Source: Actinomycetota bacterium (GTDB taxonomy: Bacteria > Actinomycetota > Acidimicrobiia > Acidimicrobiales > Microtrichaceae). From it: a stretch of 14,597 nucleotides of DNA. The translations under genes were made by a program, and so were the position numbers. Positions 434-14,597 of this stretch are shown here, piece after piece. The DNA is taken from assembly GCA_018268735.1 (NCBI GenBank), contig JAFDWA010000017.1, positions 1 through 14,597 of the forward strand, written 5' to 3'. Numbering within the stretch: position 1 is the first letter of the stretch; every line of letters begins with the position of its first letter. The notes under the pieces were generated by a model. It had not been told where the DNA came from. It did no database searches and was given only the letters and a program-made list of their open reading frames with translations.

Positions 434-2042
434 ACTGCTCGGCGGGTGCGTCGATGCCCACGAGCGCCTCCCGGAGGAGCTCGACCATGTCGCCCTCGGC
501 TGCGGTGTCGGAGGCGCCGGTGCCCACCAGGTCGCGCTGCTCGTCGGGATCCTCGTCGAGGTCGAACAGCATGTCCTGGCCGGCCTGGTGCCCACCGGCT
601 GCCCAGAACGGCACCGGGTCGCCGACGTCGAAGGGCTGGCGGATCACCGGCACGTCCGATCCCGGCATGAAGTCGAGCGCGGCACGTCGGTCGGGGCGGG
701 GCAGGCGGAGCTCCGGGAACGCCGGGATCGGCATCGTCGACCAGCGGTTCGACCACATCGACAGCGGGCGGTTGCCCTCCCGGGGCGCCCGGAGGTAGCG
801 GTGGCGGCCGTCGGTCACCGCGACGCCCTGGCCCCACACGCCGGTCAACGCCCAGTCCCGCTGCGTGGCCCCGGCGCGGGCGACGGGGTCGTCCCGACCG
901 TTGCCGTCGAGGTGATCGGACGGTTCCAGCAGCGGACGCAGCGACCGCCCGTGGGTCCGGTGTGCGGGCGTCACGCCGAACACGTCGCAGATCGTGGCGT
1001 GCACGTCGACGGTGGTCGTCAACGAGTCGACCACGCCGGCGGGGCGACCCGGCCAGGCGACCATGAGCGGGATGTGGCCCAGCACGGCTCGCACGGGGGT
1101 CGCCGGCTTGCCGAAGATGTCGTGCTCGCCGAGGTAGTGGCCGTGGTCGGTGCACACGATGACCGCGGTGTCGTCCCAACGGTCCTGTCGGTCGAGCTCG
1201 TCGAGCAGCCGGCCGAACTGGTGGTCGATGAAGGTGAGCTTCGCTCCGTAGTTCGCGCGGACGTGCGCTGCGGTGCGTTCGTCGATCACCCCGGACGCGA
1301 CGGCGTCGACCGCGTACGGCGGCCAGATGACCCTGTGTCCGTCCCAGTCGGGGTCGTATCTCGACGCCCACGGCTCGGGCACGTCGAACGGCTCGTGCGG
1401 GTCGAACTCGTCGACGAACAACAGGAAGCGGTCGGCCGAGGCGGACTCCTCCGCCAGCCAGCGCGTCGCCTCGGCCATGGTCGCAGCGCCGGGGAAGTCG
1501 TCCTCGGAGCGGAACCACGTGCGGCTCTCGTCGTACGCGTGGGTCACCCAGCCCTCCCGCGCCGGCAGCGCCGGAGCACCGATCCACGACGGGTCCGCAG
1601 CGGTGCGCCACGGATCGCTCTCGTGGCCGCGGAGGTAGCGCCAGGCGCCGAAGTCGGTGTGGTAGTTCTCGCCGCCGGTCTCGAACAGGTGCGGATGGTC
1701 CGACACGAGCATCGAGGTGATGCCCGCACGTCGCAGGTCGTAGGTGACGGCGTCCTCCCAGATCTCGACCGATCCCCACGGCCGCCACAGGAAGTCGATC
1801 GCACCGACGAGGATGTCGTGGCGGGCGGGCATGCACGGCAGCGACCCCGTGTGGTGGCGGTCGAAGCGGACCGCACGCGCCGCGAAGCGGTCCAGGTTCG
1901 GCGTGTCGAACTCGGGTGGGTGACCGAGCACGGGCGCGTACGCGCCGAGCATGTGGCGGTTCAGGCTGTCGAGCAGCACGACCACGAGGTTGCGTGGTCG
2001 GCGCCGCGGCAGCGGGCCCGGTTCAGCCGACGCGGGCGTCAC
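411..2042 (-). CDS. Cysteine-type sulfatase (alkaline phosphatase superfamily)
   Basis: Type I sulfatase that would hydrolyse a sulfate ester. With the GTG at 2042 it has 543 residues. The active-site motif C-x-P-x-R is seen as CMPAR at 70-74; in this family the Cys is converted to formylglycine by a separate enzyme not encoded here. Metal-site residues are recognisable in LLDS (D25), DEFDPHEP (212-218) and TDHGHYLGEH (298-307), with K312 following. There is no signal peptide, so it probably acts in the cytoplasm. The frame is open further upstream, but that part is the shadow of the preceding synthetase gene; GTG 2042 gives a 20-bp overlap with that gene and suggests translational coupling. 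No clear SD is visible. Natural substrate unknown; a sulfated lipid or sterol would fit the neighbours, but that is inference. Confidence 0.9.
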   Translation of the reverse strand: MTPASAEPGPLPRRRPRNLVVVLLDSLNRHMLGAYAPVLGHPPEFDTPNLDRFAARAVRFDRHHTGSLPCMPARHDILVGAIDFLWRPWGSVEIWEDAVTYDLRRAGITSMLVSDHPHLFETGGENYHTDFGAWRYLRGHESDPWRTAADPSWIGAPALPAREGWVTHAYDESRTWFRSEDDFPGAATMAEATRWLAEESASADRFLLFVDEFDPHEPFDVPEPWASRYDPDWDGHRVIWPPYAVDAVASGVIDERTAAHVRANYGAKLTFIDHQFGRLLDELDRQDRWDDTAVIVCTDHGHYLGEHDIFGKPATPVRAVLGHIPLMVAWPGRPAGVVDSLTTTVDVHATICDVFGVTPAHRTHGRSLRPLLEPSDHLDGNGRDDPVARAGATQRDWALTGVWGQGVAVTDGRHRYLRAPREGNRPLSMWSNRWSTMPIPAFPELRLPRPDRRAALDFMPGSDVPVIRQPFDVGDPVPFWAAGGHQAGQDMLFDLDEDPDEQRDLVGTGASDTAAEGDMVELLREALVGIDAPAEQFTRLGLG

Positions 2043-3648
2043 CGTGCTCGGCCAGGTGCTTGGCCCACGGGTAGTCGGGCTTGCCGGAGGGGGAGCGCAC
2101 GATCTCGTCGACCACGTGGAGCTCGCGGGGCACCTTGTAGCCGGCGATGTGGCCACGGGCGTGCTCGACGAGGTCCTCGAGCGTGACGTCGTGGCCGTCG
2201 CGGGTCTGCACGACCGCAGCGACCCGCTGACCCCAACGCTCGTCGGGGACGCCGACGACGAGGCAGTCGTAGACCGCCGGATGGGACTTCAACGCTGCCT
2301 CGACCTCCTCGGGGAAGATCTTCTCGCCGCCGGAGTTGATCGACACCGATCCGCGGCCGAGCATCACGAGGCGGCCGTCCTCGGTCCAGCGCGCGAAGTC
2401 GCCGCCCATCGAGTAGCGCCGGCCGTCGGCTGCGGTCACGAACACCTCGGCGGTCTTGGCCGGGTCGTTGAAGTAGCCGAGCGGGATGTTGCCGGTGCGA
2501 CCGAGTCGACCGACGCGTGTGTCGCCGGGCGGGATGATCGCCAGGTCGTCATCCAGCACCGCGACGTCGCGCCCGGCGTTCACCGTCGGCCCGCCGCCGT
2601 CGGCCTTCGCTCCCTTCGCCGCGTAGGTGACGCCGTTGAACCCGCCCTCGGTCGAGCCGATCGAGTCGGTGATGATCAGGTTCGGGAACCGGTCGAGGAA
2701 GCGGTCCTTCACCGACTGGGAGAACAGCGCGGCGCTCGACGACAGCGAGATGAAGCTGGTGGTGTCCCAGCGGCCGGGATGGGCCTCGAGCGCCTCGATC
2801 ATCGGGCGGGCGACCGCGTCGCCGGTGATGATGATCGAGTTGACGCCATGTGCGGAGATCAGGTCCCACACCTCCTCGGCGTCGAACTTCCCCACCAGCA
2901 CGATCGTCGATCCGATGAACCACTGGCTGAGCGTCGCGATCTGTGCGGCGCCGTGCATCAGCGGTGGGATCACCCCGAACACCAATCCGCTCGGCGACGC
3001 GGCCGCCTGCTCCGCCTTCGTGAACTCGGAGCTGACCCGCTCGTTGGTCAGCGCGTCGATGCCCTGGCCGAGCGCGAAGTAGATGTCCTCGTGGCGCCAC
3101 ATCACGCCCTTGGGCATGCCCGTCGTGCCGCCGGTGTAGATGATGTACACGTCATCCGCGGAGCGCTCGGGGAAGTCGCGCTCCGGCCCTCCCTGTTCGC
3201 ACGCCTCGTCGAAGTCGACCGAGCCCAGCGCGGAGGTGTCGGCATCGGAGCCGTCCTCGATGTGCACCAGCGTGCGGAGCTTCGGTGATGCCTCGAGCAC
3301 CGCCGCCACACGTGGCGCGTACTCCCGGTCGAACACGCAGGCGACGAGCTCGGCGTTGCCGATGAGGTAGGCGAGTTCGGCCTCCACGTAGCGGTAGTTC
3401 ACGTTGACCGGGACAGCCCGGACCTTGAGGCAGCCGAGCATCGCGGTGACCCACGGCTCGGAGTTGATCGCGTAGATGCCGACGTGGTCGCCCGGGCCGA
3501 TCCCCTGCGACGCGAGGTAGTGGCCGAAGCGGTTGGCCCGTGCGTCGAGCTCGGCGAACGTGAGGGTGCTCCCGCCGGCGATGAGCGCCGGTCGGTCCGG
3601 CACGGCGTCGACGGTGTGCTCGAAGAGGTCTGCGATGTTGTAGGCCAC
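2023..3648 (-). CDS. FadD-type acyl-CoA synthetase
   Basis: ATP-dependent carboxylate-CoA ligase of the ANL superfamily, forming acyl-CoA through an acyl-adenylate. The 541 residues are the usual length. The AMP-binding P-loop is YTGGTTGMPKG at 171-181, followed by VMWRHEDIY, a sequence I associate with the FadD19/FadD17 steroid side-chain branch of actinobacteria. Later motifs are GGDFARW, GRGSVSINSGGEKIFPEEVE and the C-terminal SPSGK with catalytic lysine near K523. The start is GTG at 3648 with no SD, but TAGCGT lies 6 nt upstream, fitting a leaderless promoter. It lies 52 bp downstream of the WS/DGAT gene and overlaps the sulfatase start. Activation of fatty or sterol side-chain acids feeding the neighbouring acyltransferase is a reasonable inference; exact substrate not determinable. 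Confidence 0.93.
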   Translation of the reverse strand: MAYNIADLFEHTVDAVPDRPALIAGGSTLTFAELDARANRFGHYLASQGIGPGDHVGIYAINSEPWVTAMLGCLKVRAVPVNVNYRYVEAELAYLIGNAELVACVFDREYAPRVAAVLEASPKLRTLVHIEDGSDADTSALGSVDFDEACEQGGPERDFPERSADDVYIIYTGGTTGMPKGVMWRHEDIYFALGQGIDALTNERVSSEFTKAEQAAASPSGLVFGVIPPLMHGAAQIATLSQWFIGSTIVLVGKFDAEEVWDLISAHGVNSIIITGDAVARPMIEALEAHPGRWDTTSFISLSSSAALFSQSVKDRFLDRFPNLIITDSIGSTEGGFNGVTYAAKGAKADGGGPTVNAGRDVAVLDDDLAIIPPGDTRVGRLGRTGNIPLGYFNDPAKTAEVFVTAADGRRYSMGGDFARWTEDGRLVMLGRGSVSINSGGEKIFPEEVEAALKSHPAVYDCLVVGVPDERWGQRVAAVVQTRDGHDVTLEDLVEHARGHIAGYKVPRELHVVDEIVRSPSGKPDYPWAKHLAEHGDARVG

Positions 3649-3700
3649 GGCGCAACGCTACGGCATGGCGTCGGCGGTGGACCGCGGCGGCGTCCGACGG

Positions 3701-5197
3701 TCAGTTCGGCGAGACGTGCTGCGTCGTCGGGGGATGCTGTGCCGATGGGGTGTGCTTGCGCGTCGAGGTCACCGGCGCCGGACGCTTGACGAGCGTCGGA
3801 TCCCTGGTCGCTGCGGCGGCCTTGATCTCCTCGAAGGCGTGGCCGACCGCGTCGGCGAGATCCCACACGTCGGGCACGAGGTCCGTGCAGGCGAGGAACC
3901 CGAAGTCGATGCTGTTGCGGTACGACATGACGGTGATGTTCAGGCCGGCGCCGTCCATGATCGGACCCATCGGGTAGGTCGCGACCATCTCGGCGCCGGC
4001 CATGTAGAGCGGGAAGTCCGGACCGGGCACGTTCGAGATCACGAGGTTGTGGATCGGCCGGTGCGAGTTCGCGAGGTTCATCGAGCTGTACAGGCGTGCC
4101 GCGAGGCCGAAGGTGCGGGGCGTCGCCCACTCTGCCCAGTCCGTGAGGGTCCTGGCCCCGATCGCGTTCTGGTCCTCCTTGGCGCCGGCGGTGGAGTTGG
4201 CGATCGTCTGGATTCGCTCGAACGGGTCGTCCACATCGGTTGCGAGCGAGGTGAACATCGCAGAGACCTTGTTGCCCTGGGTGTTGCGCTCGTCCTCGGT
4301 GCGCACCGACACCGGACACACCGCCATCAGCGACTCCTCCGGCAGCGCACCCAGCCCTTCGAGGTAGTGGCGCAAGGTGCCCGAGCAGATCGCGAGCACG
4401 ACGTCGTTCACCTTGACGCCGAGAGCGGCCTTGATCGCCTTGGTCTCGTCGAGGGGCACCCGAGCGAAGGACACCGACCGGTCCGGGGTGATCGACGCGT
4501 TGAACGGGGTGCGTGGCGCGGTCAGCGGGACGGCGCCGTGGCGACGCTCGGGGTTGCGGATCCCGGTGATCACGTTGTTCACCGACTGCGCCGTCCGCCC
4601 GATCAGCCCGAACGCGTCGCCGAAGCGCCTGGCCTTCGACAGCGCCGCATACGACAGCAGCTCCACGTCGCTCGGCACGTGCTCGACCGGAACCGGGTCG
4701 AAGTCGATCTCCCGGCCGTCGGCCGACAGGTCGAACAGCGCCGTCATCAGCTCGGCTCCGCCGGAGCCGTCGATCGTCGCGTGGTGGACCTTGACGACCA
4801 GTCCGAACCGGTCGTGCTTGAGGCCTTCGATCACCCATGCCTCCCACAGCGGGTGGCTCCGGTCGAGGGGTTCCGAGGCGATCTGCGCGGCGAGCCGTGC
4901 GAGCTCGCGCCGGCCGCCCGGCGCGGGACAGGTGACGCGGTGGACGTGGTGGTCCAGGTCGAAGTCGGGGTCCTCGATCCACACCGGGTGGTGGAACTGG
5001 AACGGCACCTCGACCAGGCGTCGCCGGAACGGCGGGACCAGCGGGAGCCGCTCTTCGATCGTGGCCCTGACCTTGTCGAAGCTGTAGCCGCCCGCCATCG
5101 TGGATGCGTCATAGATGCCGGTCATCGCCACGTGCATGTGCCCTGCAGGTGTCTCCAGGTACAGGAACGTGGCGTCCATCCCTGACAGTCGTTCCAC
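3701..5197 (-). CDS. WS/DGAT wax ester synthase / diacylglycerol acyltransferase
   Basis: Bifunctional O-acyltransferase that esterifies fatty alcohols or diacylglycerol with acyl-CoA to make wax esters or triacylglycerol, normally at the cytoplasmic membrane and lipid droplets. The 498 residues match the family. The N-terminus MERLSGMDATFLYLE is typical; PLW is at 116-118, the catalytic HHxxxDG is HHATIDG at 138-144, and a later KVNDVVLA carries the conserved ND motif. The last 30 or so residues are low-complexity and probably disordered. The start is GTG 5197, decided by a strong SD AGGAGGAGGG (5202-5211); the longer open frame upstream lacks family similarity. It heads a minus-strand cluster with the acyl-CoA synthetase, which could supply its acyl-CoA. 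Confidence 0.94.
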   Translation of the reverse strand: MERLSGMDATFLYLETPAGHMHVAMTGIYDASTMAGGYSFDKVRATIEERLPLVPPFRRRLVEVPFQFHHPVWIEDPDFDLDHHVHRVTCPAPGGRRELARLAAQIASEPLDRSHPLWEAWVIEGLKHDRFGLVVKVHHATIDGSGGAELMTALFDLSADGREIDFDPVPVEHVPSDVELLSYAALSKARRFGDAFGLIGRTAQSVNNVITGIRNPERRHGAVPLTAPRTPFNASITPDRSVSFARVPLDETKAIKAALGVKVNDVVLAICSGTLRHYLEGLGALPEESLMAVCPVSVRTEDERNTQGNKVSAMFTSLATDVDDPFERIQTIANSTAGAKEDQNAIGARTLTDWAEWATPRTFGLAARLYSSMNLANSHRPIHNLVISNVPGPDFPLYMAGAEMVATYPMGPIMDGAGLNITVMSYRNSIDFGFLACTDLVPDVWDLADAVGHAFEEIKAAAATRDPTLVKRPAPVTSTRKHTPSAQHPPTTQHVSPN

Positions 5198-5201
5198 GTG
5201 T

Positions 5202-5211
5202 CCCTCCTCCT
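5202..5211 (-). promoter_or_regulatory. Strong Shine-Dalgarno of the WS/DGAT gene
   Basis: On the minus strand AGGAGGAGGG ends 4 nt before GTG 5197, with the AGGAGG core 8 nt away. It decides the start codon and contrasts with the SD-less starts of several neighbours. Confidence 0.85.
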
Positions 5212-5255
5212 CGTCGGGACCTCGGCGCGGCCCGCTGAGGGACATTCTCGCGGGA

Positions 5256-5292
5256 AGGGCGCCCGCGTGCCGGTTCGACTCGCGGGCGCCCT
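5256..5292 (-). terminator. Strong hairpin downstream of yceI-family gene
   Basis: A perfect 12-bp inverted repeat (arms 5256-5267 and 5281-5292) with a 13-nt loop lies 39 bp past the yceI-family stop and about 60 bp before the WS/DGAT start. The arms are almost pure G/C. No U-tract follows on either strand, so it is a terminator-like hairpin of the kind common in high-GC actinobacteria rather than a textbook intrinsic terminator. It probably insulates the lipid cluster from yceI transcription. Confidence 0.65.
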
Positions 5293-5331
5293 CGGCGCGT
5301 TGGTGGGATCGGCCGACGCGGCCGTGCTGGC

Positions 5332-5877
5332 TCAGGCGTCCTTCGGGCGGACGGCCTCGACCTCCAGGACGATCTTGACCTTCTTCCCGACGACGAGACC
5401 ACCGGTCTCGAGGGCCTGGTTCCACGTCAGGCCGAAGTCCGTGCGGTCGATCTCCGTCTCGGCGGAGAAGGCGATGCGCTCCTGGCCGTAGGGGTCGTCG
5501 ATCACGCCGTCGAGCTCCGTCTCCAGCTCGACCGAACGGGTGACGCCGTGGATGGTCAGCTCGCCGGTCACCACCCAGTCGTCGCCGTCGGAGCGGAGGC
5601 CGGTCGAACGGAACTCGAGCGTCGGGAAGTTGTCGACGTCGAGGAAGTCGGCGGAGTGGATGTGCGCGTCGCGACCGGCGTCACGGGTGTTGAACGACGT
5701 CGCGTCGATCGTGACCTCCACGTGGGAGTCGGTGATCGGATCGGCGATCGTGATCGCGCCGTCGAACTTGTCGAACTCGCCCCTGACCTTGGAGAGGCCG
5801 AAGTGCTTGACCGCGAATCCGACGTGCGTGTGGCTCGCGTCGATCGAGTAGGTGCCGGGGGTGGGGAGGTCGCTCAT
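5332..5877 (-). CDS. YceI-family lipid/isoprenoid-binding protein
   Basis: YceI family proteins form a lipocalin-like beta barrel that binds isoprenoid quinones or other long-chain amphiphiles; many respond to stress. This copy has 181 residues. Family motifs seen are DASHTHVGFAVKH (13-25), RDAHIHSADFLDVDNFPTLEF (69-89), LTIHGVTRSV (107-116) and RTDFGLTWN (145-153). There is no signal peptide, so a cytoplasmic location is likely. The start is ATG 5877, chosen because GGAG lies 5 nt upstream (5883-5886); an ATG five codons earlier is the alternative. It is transcribed divergently from a MarR-type regulator, which probably controls it. Confidence 0.93.
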   Translation of the reverse strand: MSDLPTPGTYSIDASHTHVGFAVKHFGLSKVRGEFDKFDGAITIADPITDSHVEVTIDATSFNTRDAGRDAHIHSADFLDVDNFPTLEFRSTGLRSDGDDWVVTGELTIHGVTRSVELETELDGVIDDPYGQERIAFSAETEIDRTDFGLTWNQALETGGLVVGKKVKIVLEVEAVRPKDA

Positions 5878-5917
5878 CGGTGCTCCAGTCATGGGTCGAG
5901 GTGGTTGATGACAACGA

Positions 5918-5946
5918 TGTCTATCAGTCAATAATTGAGAAGTCAA
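5918..5946 (-). promoter_or_regulatory. yceI-family promoter with embedded MarR-like palindrome
   Basis: On the minus strand TTGACT (5941-5946) and TAGACA (5918-5923) are separated by exactly 17 nt, a plausible sigma-70-type promoter. The spacer contains TCAATAATTGA (5928-5938 on the plus strand), a perfect odd-centred palindrome of the size and AT-rich character of MarR-family operators. The region is sharply AT-richer than its surroundings. The gene for a MarR protein starts 48 bp away on the other strand, so repression of yceI and possible autoregulation are inferred. Confidence 0.6.
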
Positions 5947-5972
5947 ATACTGCACCAGCAGCGATTGTCGGG

Positions 5973-5988
5973 TAGAGTTCGAGTCGTG
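5973..5988 (+). promoter_or_regulatory. Probable leaderless -10 element of the MarR gene
   Basis: TAGAGT (5973-5978) lies 7 nt before GTG 5986, so transcription would begin at or next to the start codon. No SD precedes this GTG. TANNNT at this distance is the usual actinobacterial leaderless arrangement. No convincing -35 is visible. Confidence 0.5.
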
Positions 5989-6549
5989 TCCGACGACTGC
6001 GCCTCCCTGCTCCCGGTCGACCCACCACCCCCTCGTGCCCCTGCCGACGTCGAGGAGGGCGCGATCCGGACGTTCGGGTTGCTGCTCGAAGCGCACACGC
6101 GCATCACTCGGCTGCTCGACGCCGACCTGCAGCGCTCCACGGGGATCTCGCTGCAGACCCTCGAGGTCCTCCTGCGCGTCTCCCGCGCACCGTGGGGTGT
6201 GATGACGATGTCGGAGCTGGCCGACCAGGTCGCGTTGAGCACCGGAGGTGTGACGCGGCTGGCGGACCGACTGTCCGACGACGGCCTGGTGGAGCGTCGG
6301 GCCTGTCCCGAGGACCGGCGACGGGTCCACCTCGGGCTCACCCCCCGGGGCGTCGAGGTGCTCGAGCAGGCGCTGACCCACCACGTCGATGCCCTCGACA
6401 CCCACGTGATGCGCCGCATCGATCCGGCGGACCTCGCGGGCTTCGAGCGGGTGCTCGACGCGCTGCGCACGGCGCCGGACCTCCATGGCGCGACCCCGGG
6501 CCGTGCTGCCGGCACCGCCGCCGGACCTGCTGCCGGACCTGCTGCCTGA
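5986..6549 (+). CDS. MarR-family transcriptional regulator
   Basis: Winged helix-turn-helix dimeric regulator. The 187-residue protein has a helical dimerisation start, a helix-turn-helix around SELADQVALSTGGVTRLADRL (76-96) and a wing with PEDRRRVHLGLTPRG (108-122), the DRR/R hallmark of MarR proteins. The ligand cannot be inferred; there is no redox-type Cys pair, though C5 and C107 are present. GTG 5986 is preferred because TAGAGT is 7 nt upstream and residues before it are not family-like; TTG codons upstream are alternatives. The last 14 residues come from a 12-bp tandem repeat giving an Ala/Gly/Pro tail. Divergence from the yceI-family gene suggests that gene is its target. Confidence 0.9.
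   Translation: MSDDCASLLPVDPPPPRAPADVEEGAIRTFGLLLEAHTRITRLLDADLQRSTGISLQTLEVLLRVSRAPWGVMTMSELADQVALSTGGVTRLADRLSDDGLVERRACPEDRRRVHLGLTPRGVEVLEQALTHHVDALDTHVMRRIDPADLAGFERVLDALRTAPDLHGATPGRAAGTAAGPAAGPAA
6505..6546 (+). repeat. 12-bp tandem repeat in the MarR C-terminus
   Basis: Three and a half imperfect copies of a GCTGCCGGACCT-type unit (6505-6516, 6517-6528, 6529-6540, 6541-6546) encode AAGT, AAGP, AAGP, AA and run directly into the stop codon. Unit number could vary without a frameshift. Confidence 0.85.
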
Positions 6550-6567
6550 GGGGCCTGTCAGGTCCCC
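6550..6567 (+). terminator. Short hairpin just after the MarR stop
   Basis: GGGGCCT and AGGTCCCC pair with one bulged T around a 3-nt loop directly after the stop codon. No T-tract follows. It may end or attenuate the MarR transcript before the next gene. Confidence 0.35.
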
Positions 6568-6596
6568 GCAGGCGTTCATCGAGCTCTCACCCTGCT

Positions 6597-6620
6597 CACA
6601 CCGTGGATCGCGACGGTGTG
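6597..6620 (+). promoter_or_regulatory. 8-bp inverted repeat abutting the next start codon
   Basis: CACACCGT (6597-6604) and ACGGTGTG (6613-6620) form a perfect 8-bp inverted repeat around an 8-nt centre, ending two bases before ATG 6623. In RNA it would fold over the ribosome entry site; in DNA it has the size of a dimeric repressor operator. No SD is visible for the gene. Confidence 0.5.
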
Positions 6621-6622
6621 GC

Positions 6623-7054
6623 ATGGACGAGCTCCCACCCCCGATCCCACCCTCGATCCCATCGGCGCACGGTGCCCCGCCCGGGGTCCCTCCCCGCCAT
6701 GGCAAGCGGGCCTCGAGGAGCCGGGTCGCCGCAGCGGTGATCGCGACCGGCGCCATGGGCGGGTTCGTCGGCTACTTCAGCGGCGGCGGCGCCGCTGACA
6801 GATCGGCGGGCAGCTCCACCTCGGGCGGCGCTGCCGGCTCGGCCGCGGTCACGCCACCCTCGTCGACGGTTCCGTCGTTCGGCGACCGGTCAGGCGACGG
6901 AGCCGACCCCGGCGGGGTCGGGTACGGAAAGGCCGGGTACGGAGGAGGGGGCGTCACCGACCGCGGGGGCTTCGGATCCGGCTCCGCTGCTGCGGTGCCC
7001 GGTGGGTCGTCCAACTCCTCATCCGGACCGTCCACGGTGACACGAGGCAGCTGA
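6623..7054 (+). CDS. Small single-TM protein, Pro-rich N-terminus and Gly/Ser-rich exterior
   Basis: I do not recognise a named family. The 143-residue product begins with a Pro-rich segment (MDELPPPIPPSIP), then a basic stretch RHGKRASRSR (25-34) and one hydrophobic segment (about 35-53). The positive charges before the helix suggest the N-terminus is inside and the Gly/Ser/Tyr-rich remainder (54-143) is outside and probably disordered. ATG 6623 is chosen because the open frame before it is not protein-like. The stop is 4 bp before the ApbE start, so the two are probably co-translated. A membrane anchor or partner for a flavinylation or redox system is possible, but no FMN-attachment motif of the D-x-x-S/T-G-A-T type is visible. 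Confidence 0.7.
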   Translation: MDELPPPIPPSIPSAHGAPPGVPPRHGKRASRSRVAAAVIATGAMGGFVGYFSGGGAADRSAGSSTSGGAAGSAAVTPPSSTVPSFGDRSGDGADPGGVGYGKAGYGGGGVTDRGGFGSGSAAAVPGGSSNSSSGPSTVTRGS

Positions 7055-7058
7055 CCCG

Positions 7059-8156
7059 GTGGTGGTGTCGAGCACGGCCACAGCCGTGTCCACGACCACG
7101 ACAGCGGCGGGGACCGTGGTCGTCGAGGACCGGTTCGCATGCATGGGCTCCGAGGCGCACGTGGTGCTCACCGGAGCCGACCCAGGTGCGCTCGAGGGGC
7201 TCCCCGAGCTGGCCCGCGCCCGGATCGATCGGCTCGAGCGCATCTGGAGCCGCTTCATCGCCGACAGCGAGCTGAGCCTCCTCAACGCCTCGCCGGGTCG
7301 GTGGCACGACGTCAGCGACGAGACCTTCGAGCTGGTCCGTCGCGGGCTCGCGGCCCGACGAGCGACCGCCGGTCGGTTCGACCCGACGATGCTCGACGCC
7401 GTCGTCGCCGCGGGGTACACGAGCTCGCTCGCACCGGTGGACGTCGGACCGGTGGACGTCATGGGCGCTCCGCACGCCCCGGGCGTCCGTCGCCGCTCGG
7501 GGCGTGCTGGTTCGGACGGTGCCGGTTCGGAGCGTGCCGGCGGCGAGCACGACGGGTCCTGCGGTGTCGAGCTCGATCCGTCGGGGCGTCGCGTCCGGGT
7601 CCGGCCAGGGTGCGGGTTCGACCCGGGCGGCATCGGCAAGGGGTTCGCTTCGGACTTGGTCGTCGACGAGCTCATCGACGCCGGTGCAGGTGGAGCGTGC
7701 GTGAACATCGGCGGCGACCTGCGCGTCGCCGGTGCCCCACCGGGGGTCCCCGTCGGCACCGGATGGGCGACGGCGCCGGCTGACGGCGTCGGCTCCTGGG
7801 TCGTCGGGGTGGAGGATCCACGTGACCCCTCGGGACCGGTGCTGCGTCGACTGTCGCTGCTCGACGGCGCGGTCGCGACGTCGAGCAGGTGTCGTCGTCG
7901 GTGGCGGCGCGAGGACGGCAGCGAGGCGCACCACCTGATCGACCCCTCCACTCGCGAACCGGCGACCGGCGAGGTCCTCACAGCGACCGTCGTCGCCGCA
8001 CGTGGTTGGATCGCCGAGGCGCTCGCGACAGCGGCGTTCCTCGAAGGCTCGCAGGGTGCGGCGCCGGTCGTCGCGGACCTCGGTGCGACCGGCGTGCTCG
8101 TCACCAGCTCCGGTGTCGTCGAGCTGCCCGGTCTCGACGCGTTCCTCCTGCGGTGA
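7059..8156 (+). CDS. apbE: ApbE-type FAD:protein FMN transferase
   Basis: ApbE enzymes use FAD to attach FMN covalently to Ser/Thr of redox proteins such as Rnf/Nqr subunits and extracellular reductases. Motifs in this 365-residue protein are FACMGSEAHVVL (26-37), RIWSRFIADSELSLLNAS (61-78), FDPTMLDAV (108-116), FDPGGIGKGFASDL (187-200), CVNIGGDLRV (214-223), VATSS (272-276) and HHLIDPSTREPA (291-302). The C-terminal metal motif, usually D-A-L-A/S-T, is EALAT here (320-324), so Asp is replaced by Glu. Residues about 126-168 are a low-complexity insertion. No signal peptide or lipobox is present, so it should be cytoplasmic unless mis-started. GTG 7059 has GAGG 11 nt upstream; the next two codons are also GTG. 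Its protein substrate is not evident. Confidence 0.9.
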   Translation: MVVSSTATAVSTTTTAAGTVVVEDRFACMGSEAHVVLTGADPGALEGLPELARARIDRLERIWSRFIADSELSLLNASPGRWHDVSDETFELVRRGLAARRATAGRFDPTMLDAVVAAGYTSSLAPVDVGPVDVMGAPHAPGVRRRSGRAGSDGAGSERAGGEHDGSCGVELDPSGRRVRVRPGCGFDPGGIGKGFASDLVVDELIDAGAGGACVNIGGDLRVAGAPPGVPVGTGWATAPADGVGSWVVGVEDPRDPSGPVLRRLSLLDGAVATSSRCRRRWRREDGSEAHHLIDPSTREPATGEVLTATVVAARGWIAEALATAAFLEGSQGAAPVVADLGATGVLVTSSGVVELPGLDAFLLR

Positions 8157-8175
8157 CACCGGACGTCGCGACGGA

Positions 8176-8196
8176 CTGCTGTGCTAGAGCAGCGCC
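8176..8196 (+). promoter_or_regulatory. Possible leaderless promoter and small hairpin before aacS
   Basis: TAGAGC (8185-8190) is 6 nt before ATG 8197, and no SD is seen, suggesting a leaderless start, although the sixth base is C instead of T. CTGCT (8176-8180) and AGCAG (8188-8192) also form a 5-bp inverted repeat with a 7-nt loop over the same spot. Confidence 0.35.
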
Positions 8197-10245
8197 ATGA
8201 TCGCCGAGCCCGCCCCCGACCCGTCGGACACGCCGCTGTGGACGCCGCCACCCTCGCGCGTGCTGGGGTCGCGGATGGCCGGGCTCCTCGTGCAGGCCTC
8301 CGACATGGCGGGGCGCAGGATGTCGGGAACAGCGGAGCTGCACCGGTGGTCGGTCGAGCACCCGGAGACCTTCTGGCGGATGGCGCTCGCCTCGCTGCTG
8401 CCAGGGGTCGTGCCGCACGGTCCGGTGCTCGAGCGCGGCGCGCACATGGCGGACGTCCGCTGGTTCCCCGAGGTGCAGATGAACGTCGCGCACGAGATCC
8501 TCGCCGGTGGTGCGCCCGACTCGGTGCTCCTGGTCGCGGTCGACGAGCGCGGACGGCGTCGTGAGCTGACCCGGGCCGATGCCACCGTCGAGGTCGCACG
8601 GATCGCCGAGGCGCTCCGTGGTGACGGCGTCGAGGCGGGCGACAGGGTCGTGGCGTGGATGCCCAACACGGTGGAGACGGTGCTGCTGATGCTCGGCGCA
8701 GCGTCGATCGGCGCGGTCTTCTCGTCGGCCTCACCGGACTTCGGCGCCGACGGCGTGCTCGACCGGTTCGCGCAGATCTCCCCGACGGTGCTCGTCGCCG
8801 CCGACGGCTACACCTACGGGGGCAGGGCGTTCGACCGCACAGCCGAGCTGGCGACGGTCATCGACGGGCTGCCGACGTTGCGGCGTGTCGTCGTGGTGCC
8901 GTTCCTCGACGACGCTCCGTCCCTCACATCGCTGCCCGGTCCGTCCTCCAGCGGATCCACGGTGCTGTGGGAGGACTGGCTGTCGCCCCACGACGGCGCT
9001 GCGGCCCACTACGAGCCGCTCCCGTTCGACCACCCGTGGTACGTGCTGTTCAGCTCCGGCACCACCGGCGTGCCGAAGTGCATCGTGCACCGTGCCGGGG
9101 GGGTGCTGCTCACCCACGCCAAGGAGCAGCAGCTGCACCTCGACATCCGGGCCGGGGACCGGGTCTGCTACTTCACGACCTGCGGTTGGATGATGTGGAA
9201 CTGGCTCGTGTCGGTCCCCGCGTCGGGCGCGACGATCGTCCTCTACGACGGCAACCCCGCCCACCCCGGCCCGGAGCGCCTGTGGGATCTCGTCGCGGCG
9301 GAGGGTCTCCACCTGCTCGGCGTGTCGGCGAAGTTCCTCGACGCGGTCCGCTCCTCGGGGTACCGCCCTGCCGAGAGCACCGACCTGTCCACGCTGCGGA
9401 CCCTCGCGTCGACCGGGTCGCCGCTGTCACCCGAGGGCTTCGAGTGGGTGATGGACGCGGTGGCGCCCGGGGTCGGTTCCGACGGGTTGCACCTCGCGTC
9501 GATCTCGGGCGGCACCGACCTCTGCGGATGCTTCGTGCTGGGCGATCCGACCCGCCCGGTGTGGGCGGGTGAGATCCAGGGGCCGGCACTCGGGATGGCC
9601 GTCGACGTGTTCGGCGACGACGGGACCCCGGCGGGCGTCGGCGAGCGGGGCGAGCTCGTGTGCACCGAGCCGTTCCCGTCGATGCCGTTGCGGTTCTGGG
9701 GCGACGAGCCCGACGGCGGCCCTGCTGACGGTCCGGTCGACGGGCTCGGTCCGCGCTATCGCGCTGCGTACTTCGAGCGGTTCGGAGGCGTGTGGGCCCA
9801 CGGTGACTTCGCGACGTGGACCCGTCACGGTGGCATGGTCATCCACGGCCGTTCCGACACGACGCTGAACCCGGGTGGGGTCCGCATCGGCACTGCGGAG
9901 ATCTACCGGCAGGTCGAGCGCGTCGAGGGGGTCGAGGAGTCCCTCGTGTTCGGTCAGCACGTCGGTGACGACGTGCGGATCGTGCTGCTGGTGCGGTTGG
10001 CGGTCGGTGTCGAGTTGACCGATGACCTGCAGGCCGAGATCCGTGACCGTGTCCGGCGCGGCTGCACCCCGCGGCACGTGCCGGCGGTGATCGTGGCGGT
10101 CGCGGATCTGCCCCGGACCCGTTCGGGCAAGCTCGCCGAGCTCGCCGTTGCGGACACGGTCAACGGCCGGGAGGTCCGCAACACCACCGCGCTCGCGAAC
10201 CCCGAGGTGCTCGCCGACATCGCCGCAGCGGTGCCGGCCCCCTGA
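8197..10245 (+). CDS. aacS: Acetoacetate-CoA ligase (acetoacetyl-CoA synthetase)
   Basis: Activates acetoacetate with ATP and CoA to acetoacetyl-CoA in the cytoplasm, linking ketone bodies, branched-chain amino acid or polyhydroxybutyrate breakdown to acetyl-CoA or biosynthesis. Its 682 residues fit the family, which is longer than ordinary acyl-CoA ligases. Seen motifs: RWFPEVQMN (88-96), VAWMPN (152-157), SSASPDFG (176-183), P-loop LFSSGTTGVPK (284-294), CGWMMWNWLVS, ISGGTDLCGCF, HGRSDTTLNPGGVRIGTAEIY and the C-terminal RTRSGK with catalytic K645. The closing NGREVRNTTALANPE is a signature of this family. It begins 40 bp after apbE with no SD but a -10-like TAGAGC close to the ATG, so it may be independently transcribed. 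A short insertion rich in Asp/Gly/Pro follows LRFWGDEP. Confidence 0.95.
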   Translation: MIAEPAPDPSDTPLWTPPPSRVLGSRMAGLLVQASDMAGRRMSGTAELHRWSVEHPETFWRMALASLLPGVVPHGPVLERGAHMADVRWFPEVQMNVAHEILAGGAPDSVLLVAVDERGRRRELTRADATVEVARIAEALRGDGVEAGDRVVAWMPNTVETVLLMLGAASIGAVFSSASPDFGADGVLDRFAQISPTVLVAADGYTYGGRAFDRTAELATVIDGLPTLRRVVVVPFLDDAPSLTSLPGPSSSGSTVLWEDWLSPHDGAAAHYEPLPFDHPWYVLFSSGTTGVPKCIVHRAGGVLLTHAKEQQLHLDIRAGDRVCYFTTCGWMMWNWLVSVPASGATIVLYDGNPAHPGPERLWDLVAAEGLHLLGVSAKFLDAVRSSGYRPAESTDLSTLRTLASTGSPLSPEGFEWVMDAVAPGVGSDGLHLASISGGTDLCGCFVLGDPTRPVWAGEIQGPALGMAVDVFGDDGTPAGVGERGELVCTEPFPSMPLRFWGDEPDGGPADGPVDGLGPRYRAAYFERFGGVWAHGDFATWTRHGGMVIHGRSDTTLNPGGVRIGTAEIYRQVERVEGVEESLVFGQHVGDDVRIVLLVRLAVGVELTDDLQAEIRDRVRRGCTPRHVPAVIVAVADLPRTRSGKLAELAVADTVNGREVRNTTALANPEVLADIAAAVPAP

Positions 10246-10327
10246 GCACGTCGGGCCCACCGGGCGTTCGCGTGTGGGATCGACCTCCCAGTGGTCGTTG
10301 TGGCACACGAACGCCGGCTCGCCGGTG

Positions 10328-10347
10328 CGCCGAGCCCTGACTCGGCG
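10328..10347 (+). terminator. Hairpin in the aacS to acyl-CoA ligase gap
   Basis: CGCCGAG (10328-10334) and CTCGGCG (10341-10347) form a perfect 7-bp stem with a 6-nt loop, 83 bp past the aacS stop and just before the next gene's promoter region. No T-tract follows. It is the best terminator candidate in the 176-bp gap 10246-10421. The rest of the gap holds a weak GCCC/GGGC repeat at 10255-10265 and no apparent gene. Confidence 0.4.
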
Positions 10348-10362
10348 TCGGTTCTGGCGGAA

Positions 10363-10377
10363 CTGACATATCGTCAG
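10363..10377. promoter_or_regulatory. Palindromic operator candidate overlapping a -10 box
   Basis: CTGAC (10363-10367) and GTCAG (10373-10377) are inverted around ATATC. TATCGT (10369-10374) inside it fits an actinobacterial TANNNT -10, placing transcription start near 10381 and leaving room for the SD at 10408-10413. A repressor bound here, for example a TetR-type regulator as is common for acyl-CoA metabolism genes, would block initiation. No regulator gene is adjacent. Confidence 0.5.
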
Positions 10378-10421
10378 GTCCGCCAGAGCACCGGGCCGAG
10401 CACGCACAGGGGGCGTCCCAG

Positions 10422-12032
10422 ATGACCGAAGCGACCACGATCGACGCGGCCCGCGTCGCCGCCTACCAGTTCCAAGGCCAGGACATCCCGTGGCTGATCG
10501 ACCACTGGGCGACCCACCAGTCCGACAAGGCGTTCCTGATCTGGGAGCCGAAGGACGGCCCCTCGCGCACATGGACGTACGCGGAGTTCGCCGAGGAGAC
10601 CAAGCGGGTCGCCGCCGGACTCGCGGCGCGGGGCGTCGGGATCGGCGACATGGTGCTCATCCACGCCGAGAACTGCCCCGAGGCCGTCATCGGCTGGTAC
10701 GCGTGCTCCCGGCTCGGCGCGGTGGCGGTCACCACCAACACCCGCAGCGTCGCGGCGGAGGTCGAGTACTTCATCACCCACACCGGCTGCGTCGGAGCGA
10801 TCACCCAGCCGCGCTACGCGGCGCTCGTGGCCGAGGCCGGTCCGGACCTCGGCTGGATCGTCGTCACCGACGACAACTCCGGCGTCCCGGCGACCGCCGA
10901 CGAGCTCGCCCACGGACGTGACGGCTGGGGTTCGCTGCACGGCGACCCGTCCGGCGTCCCGGATCGCGAGCGCGACCCGATGCTGCCGGCCGGGATCCTG
11001 TTCACCTCGGGCACCACCTCCAAGCCGAAGGCCGTCGTGCACACCCACGCCAACGCGCTCTGGGCGGCGAAGGTGAACCCGACGAACATCCAACTCGAAG
11101 CCGACGACGTCTACCTGGCGTCGCTGCCGTTCTTCCACGTCAACACCCAGAGCTGGGCGATCTGGTCGATCCTCGGCGTCGGCGGCACCGTGGTGCTGCA
11201 ACCCAAGTTCTCGGCCAGCCGGTTCTGGCCGGTCATCGAGAAGTACTCCGTCACCCACATCTCGCTGCTGCCGTTCGTCATCCAGACCGCGTTCGAGCAG
11301 GGCATCCCCGAGGACCACACCGTCAAGGTCGGGGTGTTCGGGCTGATCATGGCCGTCCTCGACCAGATGATGGGCATGAAGGTCGTCGCTGCGTACGGCA
11401 TGACCGAGCTCGTCACCCACTGCGTCCACTCCAACCCGTGGGAGCAGTACCCGGAGATGGCGATGGGGAAGGTGTCGCCCGGCTACGAGATGCTGATCGT
11501 CACCGAGGACGGCTTGCTCGCCGGCGTCGGCGAGATGGGCGAGCTGTGGATCCGTGGCGTCCGGGGCGTGTCGGTGTGCCTGGAGTACTTCCGCAACGAC
11601 GAGGCGAACGAGAAGTTCTTCACCTCCGACGGCTGGGCTCGCACCGGCGACATCGTGATGCTGCTCGAGGACGGCAACATCCGCTACTGCGACCGTGACA
11701 AGGACGCGCTGAAGGTCGGCGGCGAGAACGTGTCGGCCCGCGAGGTCGAGGACGTCATCCGCACGGTTCCCGGTCTGGCCGACGTGCAGGTCGTCGCCAA
11801 GTCGCACCAGCGGCTCGACATGGTTGCCGTCGCGTTCGTGATCAAGGCCGACCAGGGAGCCGACGAGGAGGAGCTGTCGCGGCAGATCGTCGACGCGTGT
11901 CGACAGAACCTCGCCGACTTCAAGGTGCCCCGAGCGGTCTACTTCGTCACGGAGTACCCGACGGCCGAGCTCGGCAAGATCTCGAAGAAGGACCTGCGCG
12001 AGCTCGCCGACTCGTACGATCCCGTCGACTGA
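10422..12032 (+). CDS. CaiC-like acyl-CoA synthetase / AMP-dependent ligase
   Basis: ANL-superfamily ligase forming an acyl-CoA from a carboxylic acid, ATP and CoA. The 536 residues are full length. P-loop FTSGTTSKPK is at 194-203; later motifs are AAYGMTE, SDGWARTGDI, DRDKDALKVGGENVSAREVE and the C-terminal ELGKISKKDL with catalytic lysine near K519. The overall pattern resembles crotonobetaine/carnitine-CoA ligases and medium-chain or dicarboxylate-type ligases; the true substrate cannot be assigned. ATG 10422 is supported by AGGGGG (10408-10413) 8 nt upstream. The gene has its own promoter/operator region and ends about 18 bp before the left boundary of the inserted IS, so the coding sequence is intact but its original 3' flank has been separated. 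Confidence 0.92.
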   Translation: MTEATTIDAARVAAYQFQGQDIPWLIDHWATHQSDKAFLIWEPKDGPSRTWTYAEFAEETKRVAAGLAARGVGIGDMVLIHAENCPEAVIGWYACSRLGAVAVTTNTRSVAAEVEYFITHTGCVGAITQPRYAALVAEAGPDLGWIVVTDDNSGVPATADELAHGRDGWGSLHGDPSGVPDRERDPMLPAGILFTSGTTSKPKAVVHTHANALWAAKVNPTNIQLEADDVYLASLPFFHVNTQSWAIWSILGVGGTVVLQPKFSASRFWPVIEKYSVTHISLLPFVIQTAFEQGIPEDHTVKVGVFGLIMAVLDQMMGMKVVAAYGMTELVTHCVHSNPWEQYPEMAMGKVSPGYEMLIVTEDGLLAGVGEMGELWIRGVRGVSVCLEYFRNDEANEKFFTSDGWARTGDIVMLLEDGNIRYCDRDKDALKVGGENVSAREVEDVIRTVPGLADVQVVAKSHQRLDMVAVAFVIKADQGADEEELSRQIVDACRQNLADFKVPRAVYFVTEYPTAELGKISKKDLRELADSYDPVD

Positions 12033-12054
12033 ACGCCGCACCCGCTCGTCCCCT

Positions 12055-12060
12055 TACCTT
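12055..12060 (+). promoter_or_regulatory. Left-end half (-10) of the circle-junction promoter
   Basis: TACCTT fits a TANNNT -10 box but has no partner -35 to its left here. When the ends of the element join, the right-end TTGACA would lie 17-18 nt upstream, giving transcription from about 12067, one base before the first predicted bridge RNA stem. Confidence 0.6.
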
Positions 12061-12066
12061 TCTCCT

Positions 12067-12251
12067 TGAGGGGTGGCAAGGGGCTCGCGAGACTCCCCTC
12101 CTGGAAGATCCGGCTCTGCCGGCATGGCTCAGTGCCCCCTGTCGCTCGACGGCCTGGGGGGTGTTGCCACCGGCGGGACCGGGCGCACAGACCTCCAATA
12201 GGGACATGCGCTTGATCGCTCATTCGTAAGGTGGATGACGGCACGTGCGCC
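12067..12251 (+). ncRNA. Predicted bridge RNA of the IS110 element
   Basis: IS110 recombinases are known to use a bridge RNA from the non-coding end, with one loop for the target and one for the donor (element) DNA. Three consecutive folds are visible. The 5' hairpin has GAGGGG/CCCCTC arms (12068-12073, 12095-12100). The target-loop stem has GCCGG-CA-TGGC (12118-12128) with GCCACCGGC (12166-12174), enclosing a C5/G5 stem. The donor-loop stem has GGCGCAC (12182-12188) with GTGCGCC (12245-12251), enclosing a GCG/CGC hairpin. In the donor loop, ATAGGGAC (12198-12205) is identical to the right end, and GTAAGG (12226-12231) is complementary to CCTTAC at the left end (12052-12057). The length of about 185 nt agrees with known bridge RNAs. 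Ends and guide limits are inferred. Confidence 0.75.
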
Positions 12252-12317
12252 TCTCGGATCTTCCGTCCCGCCCGCCCGGATCAGCCGGTGGGCTTGAGCA
12301 GTCGGAGGACAACGAGC

Positions 12318-13541
12318 ATGGCCACACCCGCCCAGGTCGAGATCTGGATCGGTGTCGATGTCGGCAAGGAGTTCCACCACGCGGTGGTCCTCGACGACGC
12401 TGGCGAGATCCTCGTGGACCGGCGTGTCACCAACAGCGAGGCCGACCTGGTCAAGCTCCTCGACGCGGCCGCCGAGAATGGCGTGGTCGGCCTGGTAATC
12501 GATCAGCCCGGCTCGATCGCGCAGCTTGCCCTGGCGTTGGCCCGCCAGCGCGAGGTCCCGGTCGCGTACATCCCCGGGCTCGTGATGCGCCGCGCCGCGG
12601 ACCTCTACCCGGGCGACGCGAAGACCGACCGGCGCGACGCGTACGTCATTGCTGACACGGCACGAAGCCGACGAGGCCAGATCCACTGGCTGAGCATCGA
12701 CGACGACCTGCTTGTCCAGCTCCGGGTTCTCAACGGCCTCGACATCGACCTCGCCGCGGACTCGACCCGTCACGCCAACCGGCTCCGCGACGCCCTGACC
12801 AGCATCTCCCCGGCGTTGGAGCGGGCGGTGGGCTCGAAGCTCCAGCACGCCGGAGTGCGCGATCTCCTCGCCAAATACCCGAAACCGACCGCGTTGCGCA
12901 CCGCGGGCAAGACCCGCATCCGCACGTTGGTCTCGAAGCGATCGCCGCGCATGGCCACCTCGATCACTGAACGAGTCGGCAAGGCACTCGACGAGCAGAC
13001 CGTGTCGGTCCCGGCAGAAGAGACCCTCGGTCGTGTCATCGCCGAGCTCGCCGTGGAGTTCGGCCGGATCCGCGACCGTCGCGACGCCCTCGAAGCCGAG
13101 ATCGAGAAGGTGTTCCTCGCGCACCCTCTCGGACCGGTCCTGATCAGCCTGCCGGGGATCGGCGCCAGGACCGGAGCAAGGATCCTCGCAGAGATCGGTG
13201 ACGGCTCCGGGTTCGCGTCGGGTTCCAAGCTCGCCGCCTACGCCGGCCTCGCACCCGTCACCCGCCAGTCGGGCACCAGCATCCGTGGTGAGCACCGCAG
13301 CAGACGCGGGAACCACCGCCTCAAGAACGCCATGTTCCTCGCCGCGTTCGCGTCGCTCAACGACCCCGACTCCCGAGCCTTCTACGACCGCAAACGCGCC
13401 GAAGGCAAACGCCACAACGCCGCGCTCATCTGCCTCGCCCGCCGCCGCTGCGACGTCATCCATGCCATGCTCCGCACCGGCGAGCACTACCTCACCAGCG
13501 GCCAACTCGCCGACCGCACCCGAGACCAGAAAGCGGCATGA
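12318..13541 (+). CDS. IS110-family transposase (DEDD recombinase)
   Basis: RNA-guided recombinase of the IS110 family, 407 residues. The N-terminal RuvC-like DEDD domain shows IGVDVGK with D14, VIDQPGS with D62 (Asp where other members often have Glu) and KTDRRDA with D104 and D107. A helical middle part follows. The C-terminal Transposase_20 domain includes LISLPGIGARTGARILAEIGD (275-295), AAYAGLAPVTRQSGTSIRG (307-325) with the presumed catalytic serine S318 in RQSGTS, and a basic end YDRKRAEGKRHNAALICLAR. No frameshift or internal stop is present, so it looks functional. ATG 12318 has GGAGG at 12304-12308, 9 nt upstream; the frame is open 29 codons further, but that part is left-end DNA. 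Its guide is the upstream bridge RNA. Confidence 0.95.
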   Translation: MATPAQVEIWIGVDVGKEFHHAVVLDDAGEILVDRRVTNSEADLVKLLDAAAENGVVGLVIDQPGSIAQLALALARQREVPVAYIPGLVMRRAADLYPGDAKTDRRDAYVIADTARSRRGQIHWLSIDDDLLVQLRVLNGLDIDLAADSTRHANRLRDALTSISPALERAVGSKLQHAGVRDLLAKYPKPTALRTAGKTRIRTLVSKRSPRMATSITERVGKALDEQTVSVPAEETLGRVIAELAVEFGRIRDRRDALEAEIEKVFLAHPLGPVLISLPGIGARTGARILAEIGDGSGFASGSKLAAYAGLAPVTRQSGTSIRGEHRSRRGNHRLKNAMFLAAFASLNDPDSRAFYDRKRAEGKRHNAALICLARRRCDVIHAMLRTGEHYLTSGQLADRTRDQKAA

Positions 13542-13546
13542 ACCCC

Positions 13547-13552
13547 TTGACA
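13547..13552 (+). promoter_or_regulatory. Right-end half (-35) of the circle-junction promoter
   Basis: A consensus TTGACA lies 5 bp past the transposase stop and points outward. In the joined circle it pairs with TACCTT from the left end, a known trick by which excised IS110 circles drive their own bridge RNA and transposase. Confidence 0.65.
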
Positions 13553-13614
13553 AATCCATAGGGACCCCCCCGTACCCCTGAGGGTGGGCCGGTGTCGGAC
13601 GGGTCGGTGCATGG

Positions 13615-13640
13615 GCACGGTCAGGTCGACAGGACCGTGC
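13615..13640 (-). terminator. Hairpin overlapping the stop of the vWA gene
   Basis: GCACGGTC (13615-13622) and GACCGTGC (13633-13640) form a perfect 8-bp stem with a 10-nt loop; the stop codon of the minus-strand vWA gene (13621-13623) lies in the left arm. No U-tract follows. It may terminate or stabilise the vWA transcript. Before the IS landed, it would also have faced the end of the acyl-CoA ligase transcript. Confidence 0.5.
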
Positions 13641-14597
13641 TGATCACGGCCGGCACCGATGACGGTCCGTCGAGCTCGGTCCAACGGAGGCCGAGTGCGT
13701 CGGCGAACGCCTCGGCATCCGCCGTGTCACCCCGAGGGGCGAGCACCGCGATCTCGTGGGCGCCGGCGGCGTGGGGGAGCGGATCGCCGCCGGCGGTCGC
13801 GCGGCAGTCCGACAGCAGCAGCGTGATGCGCCTGCCGGCGGTCGACCGGCCGAGCTGCGCCGCTGCGACCCGCAGGGCCAGGCCGAGGTCGGTCACCCCG
13901 AAGCCCCGCAGCCGCAGGAGGTCGGTCACCACGTCCTCGGGGGGTCGGATCTCGTCCTGTGCCGTGATCACGACCGCGTCCTCCGCGAACGCGATGACCG
14001 AGCAGTCGAGCGGTGCGCGCAGCTGCACTGCGGCGGCGGCGACCGCCGCGGTCGCGAGCCGGTCACCCGTCATCGAACCGGAGCGGTCGACGAGCAGGCA
14101 CACCGCAGTCGCTGGGCGCTGCCAGGCGCGGACCTGGAGCCGGTCGCCGGTGACGACCCCGGCCCGTGCGGCGGTGATCACGTCGAGGGAGGCCTCGAGG
14201 TCGATGTCGCCGTCGTCGTGACCGGCCGGGACCCGCCGGAGTCGGCCGATGCCGTGTCGTCGATCGGTCCCGACCCGACCCAGGTCCACCATGACCCGCC
14301 CGGCGAGGCGACGAGCGAGGGTCCGGAGCCGCTCGTCGGTCGCTCCGGCCAGGTCTGCGAGCAGCGACAGCATCTCGTCGGGATCGGCCGCCATCGCTTC
14401 GGCGACCGCGTCCTCGTCCAGGACGCCGACCTCGGGGGACACCTGCTCGAAGCGGTCGTGGCGGGCGAGGTCGCGACGACCGATGGTCCGCCGTCCAGCG
14501 TCTGCGGTCGCCTCCCGAGCTGCGTCGCCTTCCTTGACCTCGTCGTGGTCGGTGCGCCCCCCGCCGGGCGGCGGGGTCAGGCTTTTCCCGAACCTCC
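13621..14597 (-). CDS. von Willebrand factor A domain protein, 5' end beyond window
   Basis: The visible 324 codons end at 13621 and stay open to the right window edge. A GTG at 14442 exists, but the upstream codons are protein-like (Pro/Gly-rich PPPGGGRTDHDEVKEGD, then GRRTIGRRDLARHDRF), so the true start is outside the window. The C-terminal half is a vWA domain with a complete metal-ion site: DRSGSM (codons near 14088-14071), a Thr in GFGVTDLGLAL and an Asp in LLLSDCRATAGGD. The arrangement resembles the BchD/ChlD-like vWA proteins often paired with MoxR AAA+ ATPases in actinobacteria, which act as chaperone or cofactor-insertion machines. True magnesium chelatase function is not implied. 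The MoxR partner would be expected to the right of the window. Confidence 0.8.
   Translation of the reverse strand, partial: RFGKSLTPPPGGGRTDHDEVKEGDAAREATADAGRRTIGRRDLARHDRFEQVSPEVGVLDEDAVAEAMAADPDEMLSLLADLAGATDERLRTLARRLAGRVMVDLGRVGTDRRHGIGRLRRVPAGHDDGDIDLEASLDVITAARAGVVTGDRLQVRAWQRPATAVCLLVDRSGSMTGDRLATAAVAAAAVQLRAPLDCSVIAFAEDAVVITAQDEIRPPEDVVTDLLRLRGFGVTDLGLALRVAAAQLGRSTAGRRITLLLSDCRATAGGDPLPHAAGAHEIAVLAPRGDTADAEAFADALGLRWTELDGPSSVPAVISTVLST

Follow-up and report, generated by a model that had tools for sequence, protein, structure and literature searches.

Element, recombinase and genomic setting

We analyzed a window of 14,597 nt from an actinobacterial assembly of 2.93 Mb, which consisted of 767 contigs and was 83% complete. 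An IS110-group element of 1515 bp was found on the forward strand at positions 12053–13567, and all features of the element described below lie on the same strand. Its bounds were taken from an alignment with copies at different sites and with the unoccupied site of a relative; bounds of 12052–13566 are equally possible, one C being present at both ends. The element is located between an AMP-binding enzyme gene (stop codon at 12032) and a VWA-domain frame (13621–14442, opposite strand), and thus neither flanking frame is broken. The region 414–12029 was lipid-related and contained three AMP-binding (acyl-CoA synthetase-like) genes, a wax ester synthase/DGAT gene, a sulfatase and an ApbE gene. 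A DNA search revealed one copy of the element in the assembly. A second right end of the same type, TTGACAACAAGACAGGGACACCCC, was located at the very start of another contig (G000:C89:7-30; L093 1-40); since this right end opens the contig, a second element is probably missing because of an assembly break.

An intact frame of 407 aa (12318–13541) encodes the recombinase, a DEDD transposase with both IS110 domains in one protein: PF01548 (residues 11–165, E 6.9e-43) and PF02371 (residues 274–356, E 5.1e-23). The motifs GVDVGK at 12, VIDQPG at 60, KTDRRD at 102, and QSGTS at 317 were identified; these may carry the four acidic residues and the catalytic serine. A phmmer search aligned residues 274–391 to the IS621 chain 8wt6_A (E 1.9e-15), i.e., the Tnp domain only, with the N-terminal half unaligned, and the same residues to the solved ISCro4 chain (E 3e-12). 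According to the accessible text of PMC11187229, recombinases of the subgroup including IS110 itself have 395–455 aa, and those of the IS621 branch 315–330 aa; the recombinase of the window falls into the former range. Both its length and the alignment of a single domain agree with the sequence-only reading, which had assigned the system to a lineage distant from IS621. The left non-coding end of the element comprised about 265 nt and the right one about 26 nt. A long left end bearing the RNA and a short right end correspond to the IS110 rather than the IS1111 group by the rule on non-coding end lengths given in section 12 of PMC11208160, as far as the sections consulted describe it.

Layout of the putative bridge RNA

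The putative bridge RNA occupied approximately positions 12067–12255; its 5′ terminus was placed about 7 nt past the −10 hexamer and its 3′ terminus at the end of the donor stem. A profile of left ends matched this region with an E value of 3.4e-24, the window being one of the 29 training rows, while an Rfam scan of the window matched no family. The general plan of bridge RNAs—two internal loops 3′ of a 5′ hairpin—was evident. The hairpin (12068–12100), in which GAGGGG (12068–12073) pairs with CCCCTC (12095–12100), was drawn from the window sequence only. The target loop (12118–12174) is closed by the stems 12118–12122/12170–12174 and 12125–12128/12166–12169, which are the covarying helices 1 and 2. 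It contains the left target guide AGUGCCCCC (12131–12139), positioned by alignment, and the right target guide GGGGGG (12156–12161), followed by UG (12162–12163); both are supported by the permutation test described below, the left one more weakly. The donor loop (12182–12251) is closed by the perfectly complementary GGCGCAC (12182–12188) and GTGCGCC (12245–12251); this stem is the covarying helix 4, with double changes in six of its seven pairs.

Two guides were recognized in the donor loop, and covariation supports both. The left donor guide AUAGGGACA (12198–12206) begins with the octamer ATAGGGAC (12198–12205), which occurs again in the right end of the element at 13558–13565. The right donor guide GUAAGGUG (12226–12233) begins with GTAAGG (12226–12231), the reverse complement of CCTTAC at 12052–12057; it extends beyond this hexamer by UG (12232–12233), and the whole of GUAAGGUG would pair with CACCTTAC of the joined ends. 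The loop side and the strand of both matches are those used by IS621, in which, according to section 7 of PMC11208160, the 5′ side of the donor loop pairs with the bottom strand and the 3′ side with the top strand. The sequence-only reading had placed a bridge RNA with these donor matches in the left end of the element; every coordinate that it gave was correct, and both guides and stems covary among relatives. Its proposal of three consecutive folds was borne out in part: covariation supports the target and donor stems, the hairpin stands as noted above, and folding energy lends no support, as the window folded no better than its shuffles (z 0.05; 103 of 200 shuffles folded at least equally well).

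The same reading held that the two donor matches are hard to explain otherwise. We compared 20,000 dinucleotide shuffles of the 56-nt donor loop with the 25–27 nt around each end: 81 shuffled loops reached the 8-nt match, 2113 the 6-nt match, and 3 both. The claim is thus strong for the octamer and weak for the hexamer when the window is taken alone.

The left donor half, ATAGGGACC (13558–13566), is the right end of the element, and the right donor half, CTTACC (12053–12058), is its left end. The last base of the former, 13566 (right-end position 7), is C, where the guides of the window itself call for A. The RNA could therefore be real while this copy, having lost one donor pair, is no longer fully competent, and the presence of a single copy in the assembly would suit such a loss. 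We consider it unlikely: the recombinase frame, stems and guides are intact, the same C was found in 4 further copies of 51, and an assembly of such completeness and contig number hides repeats.

The right end also contained the −35 hexamer TTGACA (13547–13552), and the left end contained a −10-like hexamer, TACCTT (12055–12060), 17 nt from it after joining of the ends through one C. A consensus scan of the integrated region detected no promoter.

Covariation of guides, stems and ends among related copies

Relatives with E values of 1e-60 or better were present in 19 of 396 genomes of the phylum and 14 of 397 genomes of the order, the window's own genome being counted in both. Named genome contigs provided 7 loci. 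At least 80% of the query was matched in 653 plasmid records, of which 25 were used. In viral contigs, 15 stretches fitted a pattern, and none encoded a relative. A right-end pattern gave 27 hits, distributed over 10 of 396 genomes, whereas the reversed pattern used as a control gave none. Element ends were fixed by multi-copy elements within one genome (G328, G469, G359, G004, G635). The sequence-only reading had recommended aligning the left ends of related copies. This was done with the profile, built from 29 left ends including that of the window: it matched 86 of 138 loci, and the target and donor stems covaried. The remaining 52 loci, which include several more distant IS110s, were not matched. 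The 82 matches of at least 40 bits represented 67 distinct copies.

Right ends were located in two ways. In the guide-aware set (51 copies, 36 guide sets), they were sought with the left donor guide of the copy itself and a bonus for TTGA[CT], so that the left-donor test and the promoter count (51/51) are favoured by construction; 16 of the 67 copies were omitted, 12 without a right end and four unsure (L009, L138, L140, L045). In the blind set (50 of the 67 copies, 35 guide sets), one fixed consensus was used without guide or TTGAC, and 45 positions coincided with the guide-aware ones. The blind set retains three probably misplaced ends (L130, L032, L033), which have neither TTGAC nor a C next to them; its consensus ends in A and hence favours A at position 7, and ten tied searches were broken by distance. 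In all counts, the guide column of the window stops one nucleotide short of the register in the coordinates given above.

Loops that do not covary with their own ends had been set in advance as the finding that would speak against a bridge RNA; the loops do covary. In the blind set, the left donor guide agreed with its own end at 7.51 of 8 positions (6.47 when permuted) and the right donor guide at 4.94 of 5 (4.28 when permuted), neither being equalled in 5000 permutations. The right target guide agreed with its own target at 5.83 of 7 positions (permuted 5.00; 0/5000), and the left target guide, more weakly, at 3.29 of 6 (permuted 2.90; 14/5000). The guide-aware set gave the same result (0, 0, 0, and 14 of 5000) and located the left-target signal at t5 (29/51, expected 18.5) and t4 (23, expected 13.2).

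The permutations treat copies irrespective of ancestry, and repeated matched changes of guide and end are therefore the stronger argument. Besides ATAGGGAC, seven left-donor variants were equal to their own right ends over 8 nt: ACAGGAAC, ATAAGGAC, ATAGAGGC, ATAGGGGC, ACAGGGAC, ATGGGGAC, and ACGGGGAC. The match was exact in 31 of 50 copies and inexact in 16 (eight other variants); the other 3 are ATAGGGAC copies with a spurious end. In 47 of 50 copies, the right donor guide was in full agreement with its own left end over the 5 nt compared. With regard to targets, all six copies with an A-run as right target guide (L110, L034, L114, L112, L128, L129) are adjoined by T-runs. In the window, the right target guide matches the right flank at 5 of 6 positions (C at 13567–13571, G at 13572), and the left target guide matches the left flank at 4 of 8, three of these being C.

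Stem covariation was analyzed in 32 RNAs, leaving out 7 incomplete or odd copies and near-duplicates. Four helices with 24 pairs had 92.9% of cells paired, and 17 pairs showed double changes. Double-change cells numbered 115 versus 31 in shuffles; the covariation score was 0.506 versus 0.241 in shuffled and 0.072–0.122 in slid alignments. RNAalifold recovered the target stem and failed to recover the donor stem from the alignment of RNAs; the latter was detected by scanning offsets on the same data.

The promoter elements were also common to the related copies. TTGAC was found within 16 nt before 46 of the 50 blind-located right ends versus 23 of 3590 control windows inside elements. With the ends joined through one C, its distance to the left-end hexamer was 18 nt in 30 copies and 17 nt in 16; the hexamer was TACCTT in 35 of 51 copies. 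Joining of the ends would, judging from these motifs and spacings, rebuild a promoter, as is likewise reported for IS621 and ISEc21 in the accessible text of PMC11208160 and PMC11187229, respectively.

We conclude, with a probability of about 0.93, that the left end of the 407-aa IS110 recombinase gene encodes a bridge RNA and that the element is an insertion sequence of the IS110 group. This reading is based on the guide matches and the way they covary between copies, on the covarying stems, on the promoter parts and on the place of crossover, whereas transcription, binding and catalysis are proposed by analogy with IS621. The element would leave as a circle, in which the right end (−35) joins the left end (−10); the rebuilt promoter would transcribe the left end into the bridge RNA, composed of the 5′ hairpin, target loop and donor loop. 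The target loop would specify a C-run with G on its left, and the recombinase would use both loops to join circle and target, recombining into the C-run. That the loop motifs act instead as DNA, being end-like repeats bound directly by the recombinase without a guide RNA, is very improbable: although copies of end sequences would covary with ends in this case too, and the guide RNA is known here from DNA sequence alone, the stems show base-pair covariation, the two end motifs differ in orientation (one direct, one inverted), which pairing to opposite strands would require, a third motif tracks the chromosomal target rather than the element, and the promoter is positioned to transcribe the region.

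Two Streptomyces plasmid copies (L112, L128) have guides specifying GCCCC-TTTTT and are located within or next to genes annotated as IS5-family transposases; one insertion sequence thus targets another. In two Rhodococcus plasmids (L118 and L130, 2695–3174 in the latter), a gene annotated as GNAT acetyltransferase separates the recombinase from a matching right end, which is about 1790 nt past the RNA; the arrangement resembles an IS110 element carrying a passenger gene.

Crossover core and comparison with known systems

Position 8 of both ends was C in all 51 copies of the guide-aware set; in the blind set, it was C in 50/50 left and 47/50 right ends, the three misplaced ends being the exceptions. 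At position 9, donor and target guides differed in 44 of the 50 blind-set copies, of which the left end was donor-type in 44/44 and the right end target-type in 40/44; the four exceptions were the three misplaced ends, with a donor-type reading, and L114, with neither type. The corresponding values of the guide-aware set were 45/45 and 44/45. At position 7 of the 51 copies, left ends had C (46), A (4) or G (1), and right ends had A (46) or C (5, including the window), the search favouring A.

Unoccupied sites were also compared. The homologue of the L112 site equals the flanks joined via a single overlapping C, without gaps, over 147/147 bases and at 99.5% over 200; farther out, ungapped identity was 56–59%. 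The L128 site aligned gaplessly to relatives at 84.8% identity or less. At an ISEc20 site in a C-run, the sister plasmid had 10 C versus 6 + 6 at the occupied ends, i.e., two added C, which slippage in the C-run could explain; another ISEc20 empty site had an indel beside the C-run and was uninformative on the core. CA at positions 8–9 was our first reading of the donor core and was replaced by the single C. A CC core, which the two added C at the ISEc20 site favour, was set aside and is not disproved.

In IS621, as described in the accessible text of PMC11208160, CT is common to donor and target, top strands are cut after CT, and bottom strands are cut further left. No such dinucleotide was found here: one core nucleotide, C, appears to be common to donor and target. 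From the junctions, we infer a cut after C8 and a first core base that differs between donor (A) and target (C), with U12162 and U12232 suiting the donor base. We lean slightly towards the reading that in this subgroup, which by recombinase size includes IS110 itself, donor and target share a single crossover nucleotide, with AC in the donor versus usually CC in the target left of the cut, and that this difference is encoded in the RNA. In such a scheme, the U opposite the first of the two positions in both loops would suit the donor and not the target, and strands would have to be exchanged before the target loop gained a pair. Natural copies would then preserve a record of which strand was retained at the mismatch: most would be target-type on the left and donor-type on the right, and a switched minority would include the right end of the window. 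Should a single shared core base be confirmed, the CT rule of IS621 would be relaxed, and the fate of the strand-exchange heteroduplex would become readable from genome sequences. A one-base core may already be in print. The covariation set of Durrant et al. preferred CT-core boundaries where several were predicted (PMC11208160, section 21, among the sections consulted), and therefore groups without CT may be thin in it.

The family of RNA-guided recombinases is already known, and the element is a further member of it rather than a new kind. Of the IS110s in ISfinder, 85.7% had a bridge RNA predicted by Durrant et al. (2024; PMC11208160, section 12), and guide RNAs have been tested, according to the literature consulted, in IS621 and relatives, ISEc21, and IS1111-type elements. 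The element shares with IS621, as far as the accessible text of PMC11208160 and PMC11208158 describes it, an RNA in the left end, the order of hairpin, target loop and donor loop, the strand rule of the guides, the junction-rebuilt promoter and the domain make-up of the recombinase. It differs from IS621 in the size of the recombinase (407 aa versus a chain of 328 residues), in the core (one C versus CT), and in the right target guide (6 nt or more versus 4), its target being a C-run. ISEc21 seekRNA likewise is a guide RNA originating from the upstream non-coding region of an element that forms a circle with a rebuilt promoter; however, it belongs to another cluster (345–385 aa), the RNA is given as 74 nt, and only target guides are described in the text of PMC11187229 consulted. 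ISAar29, one of six bridge RNAs drawn in Extended Data Fig. 10 (sections 12 and 43 of PMC11208160) and represented here by its name in the legend, is possibly the closest drawn example. With our data, the anatomy of bridge RNAs, backed by covariation, is extended to those IS110 elements that have the larger recombinase, and the set of copies shows natural retargeting, from C-runs to GCCCC-TTTTT sites.

ISEc20, ISArsp5 and ISBma3 (ISfinder names as annotated) are protein relatives with their own guide and end sequences; ISEc20 and ISBma3 have 72% and 74% identity, respectively, to ISArsp5 over 98% of its query. ISArsp5 (L117) matched the left-end profile, and ISEc20 had the same guide layout by eye. 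Of 5426 complete Escherichia coli genomes, 1123 contained at least 80% of a 151-bp query taken from an ISEc20 right end, at up to 8 places per genome; these copies are a ready set for insertion-site statistics.
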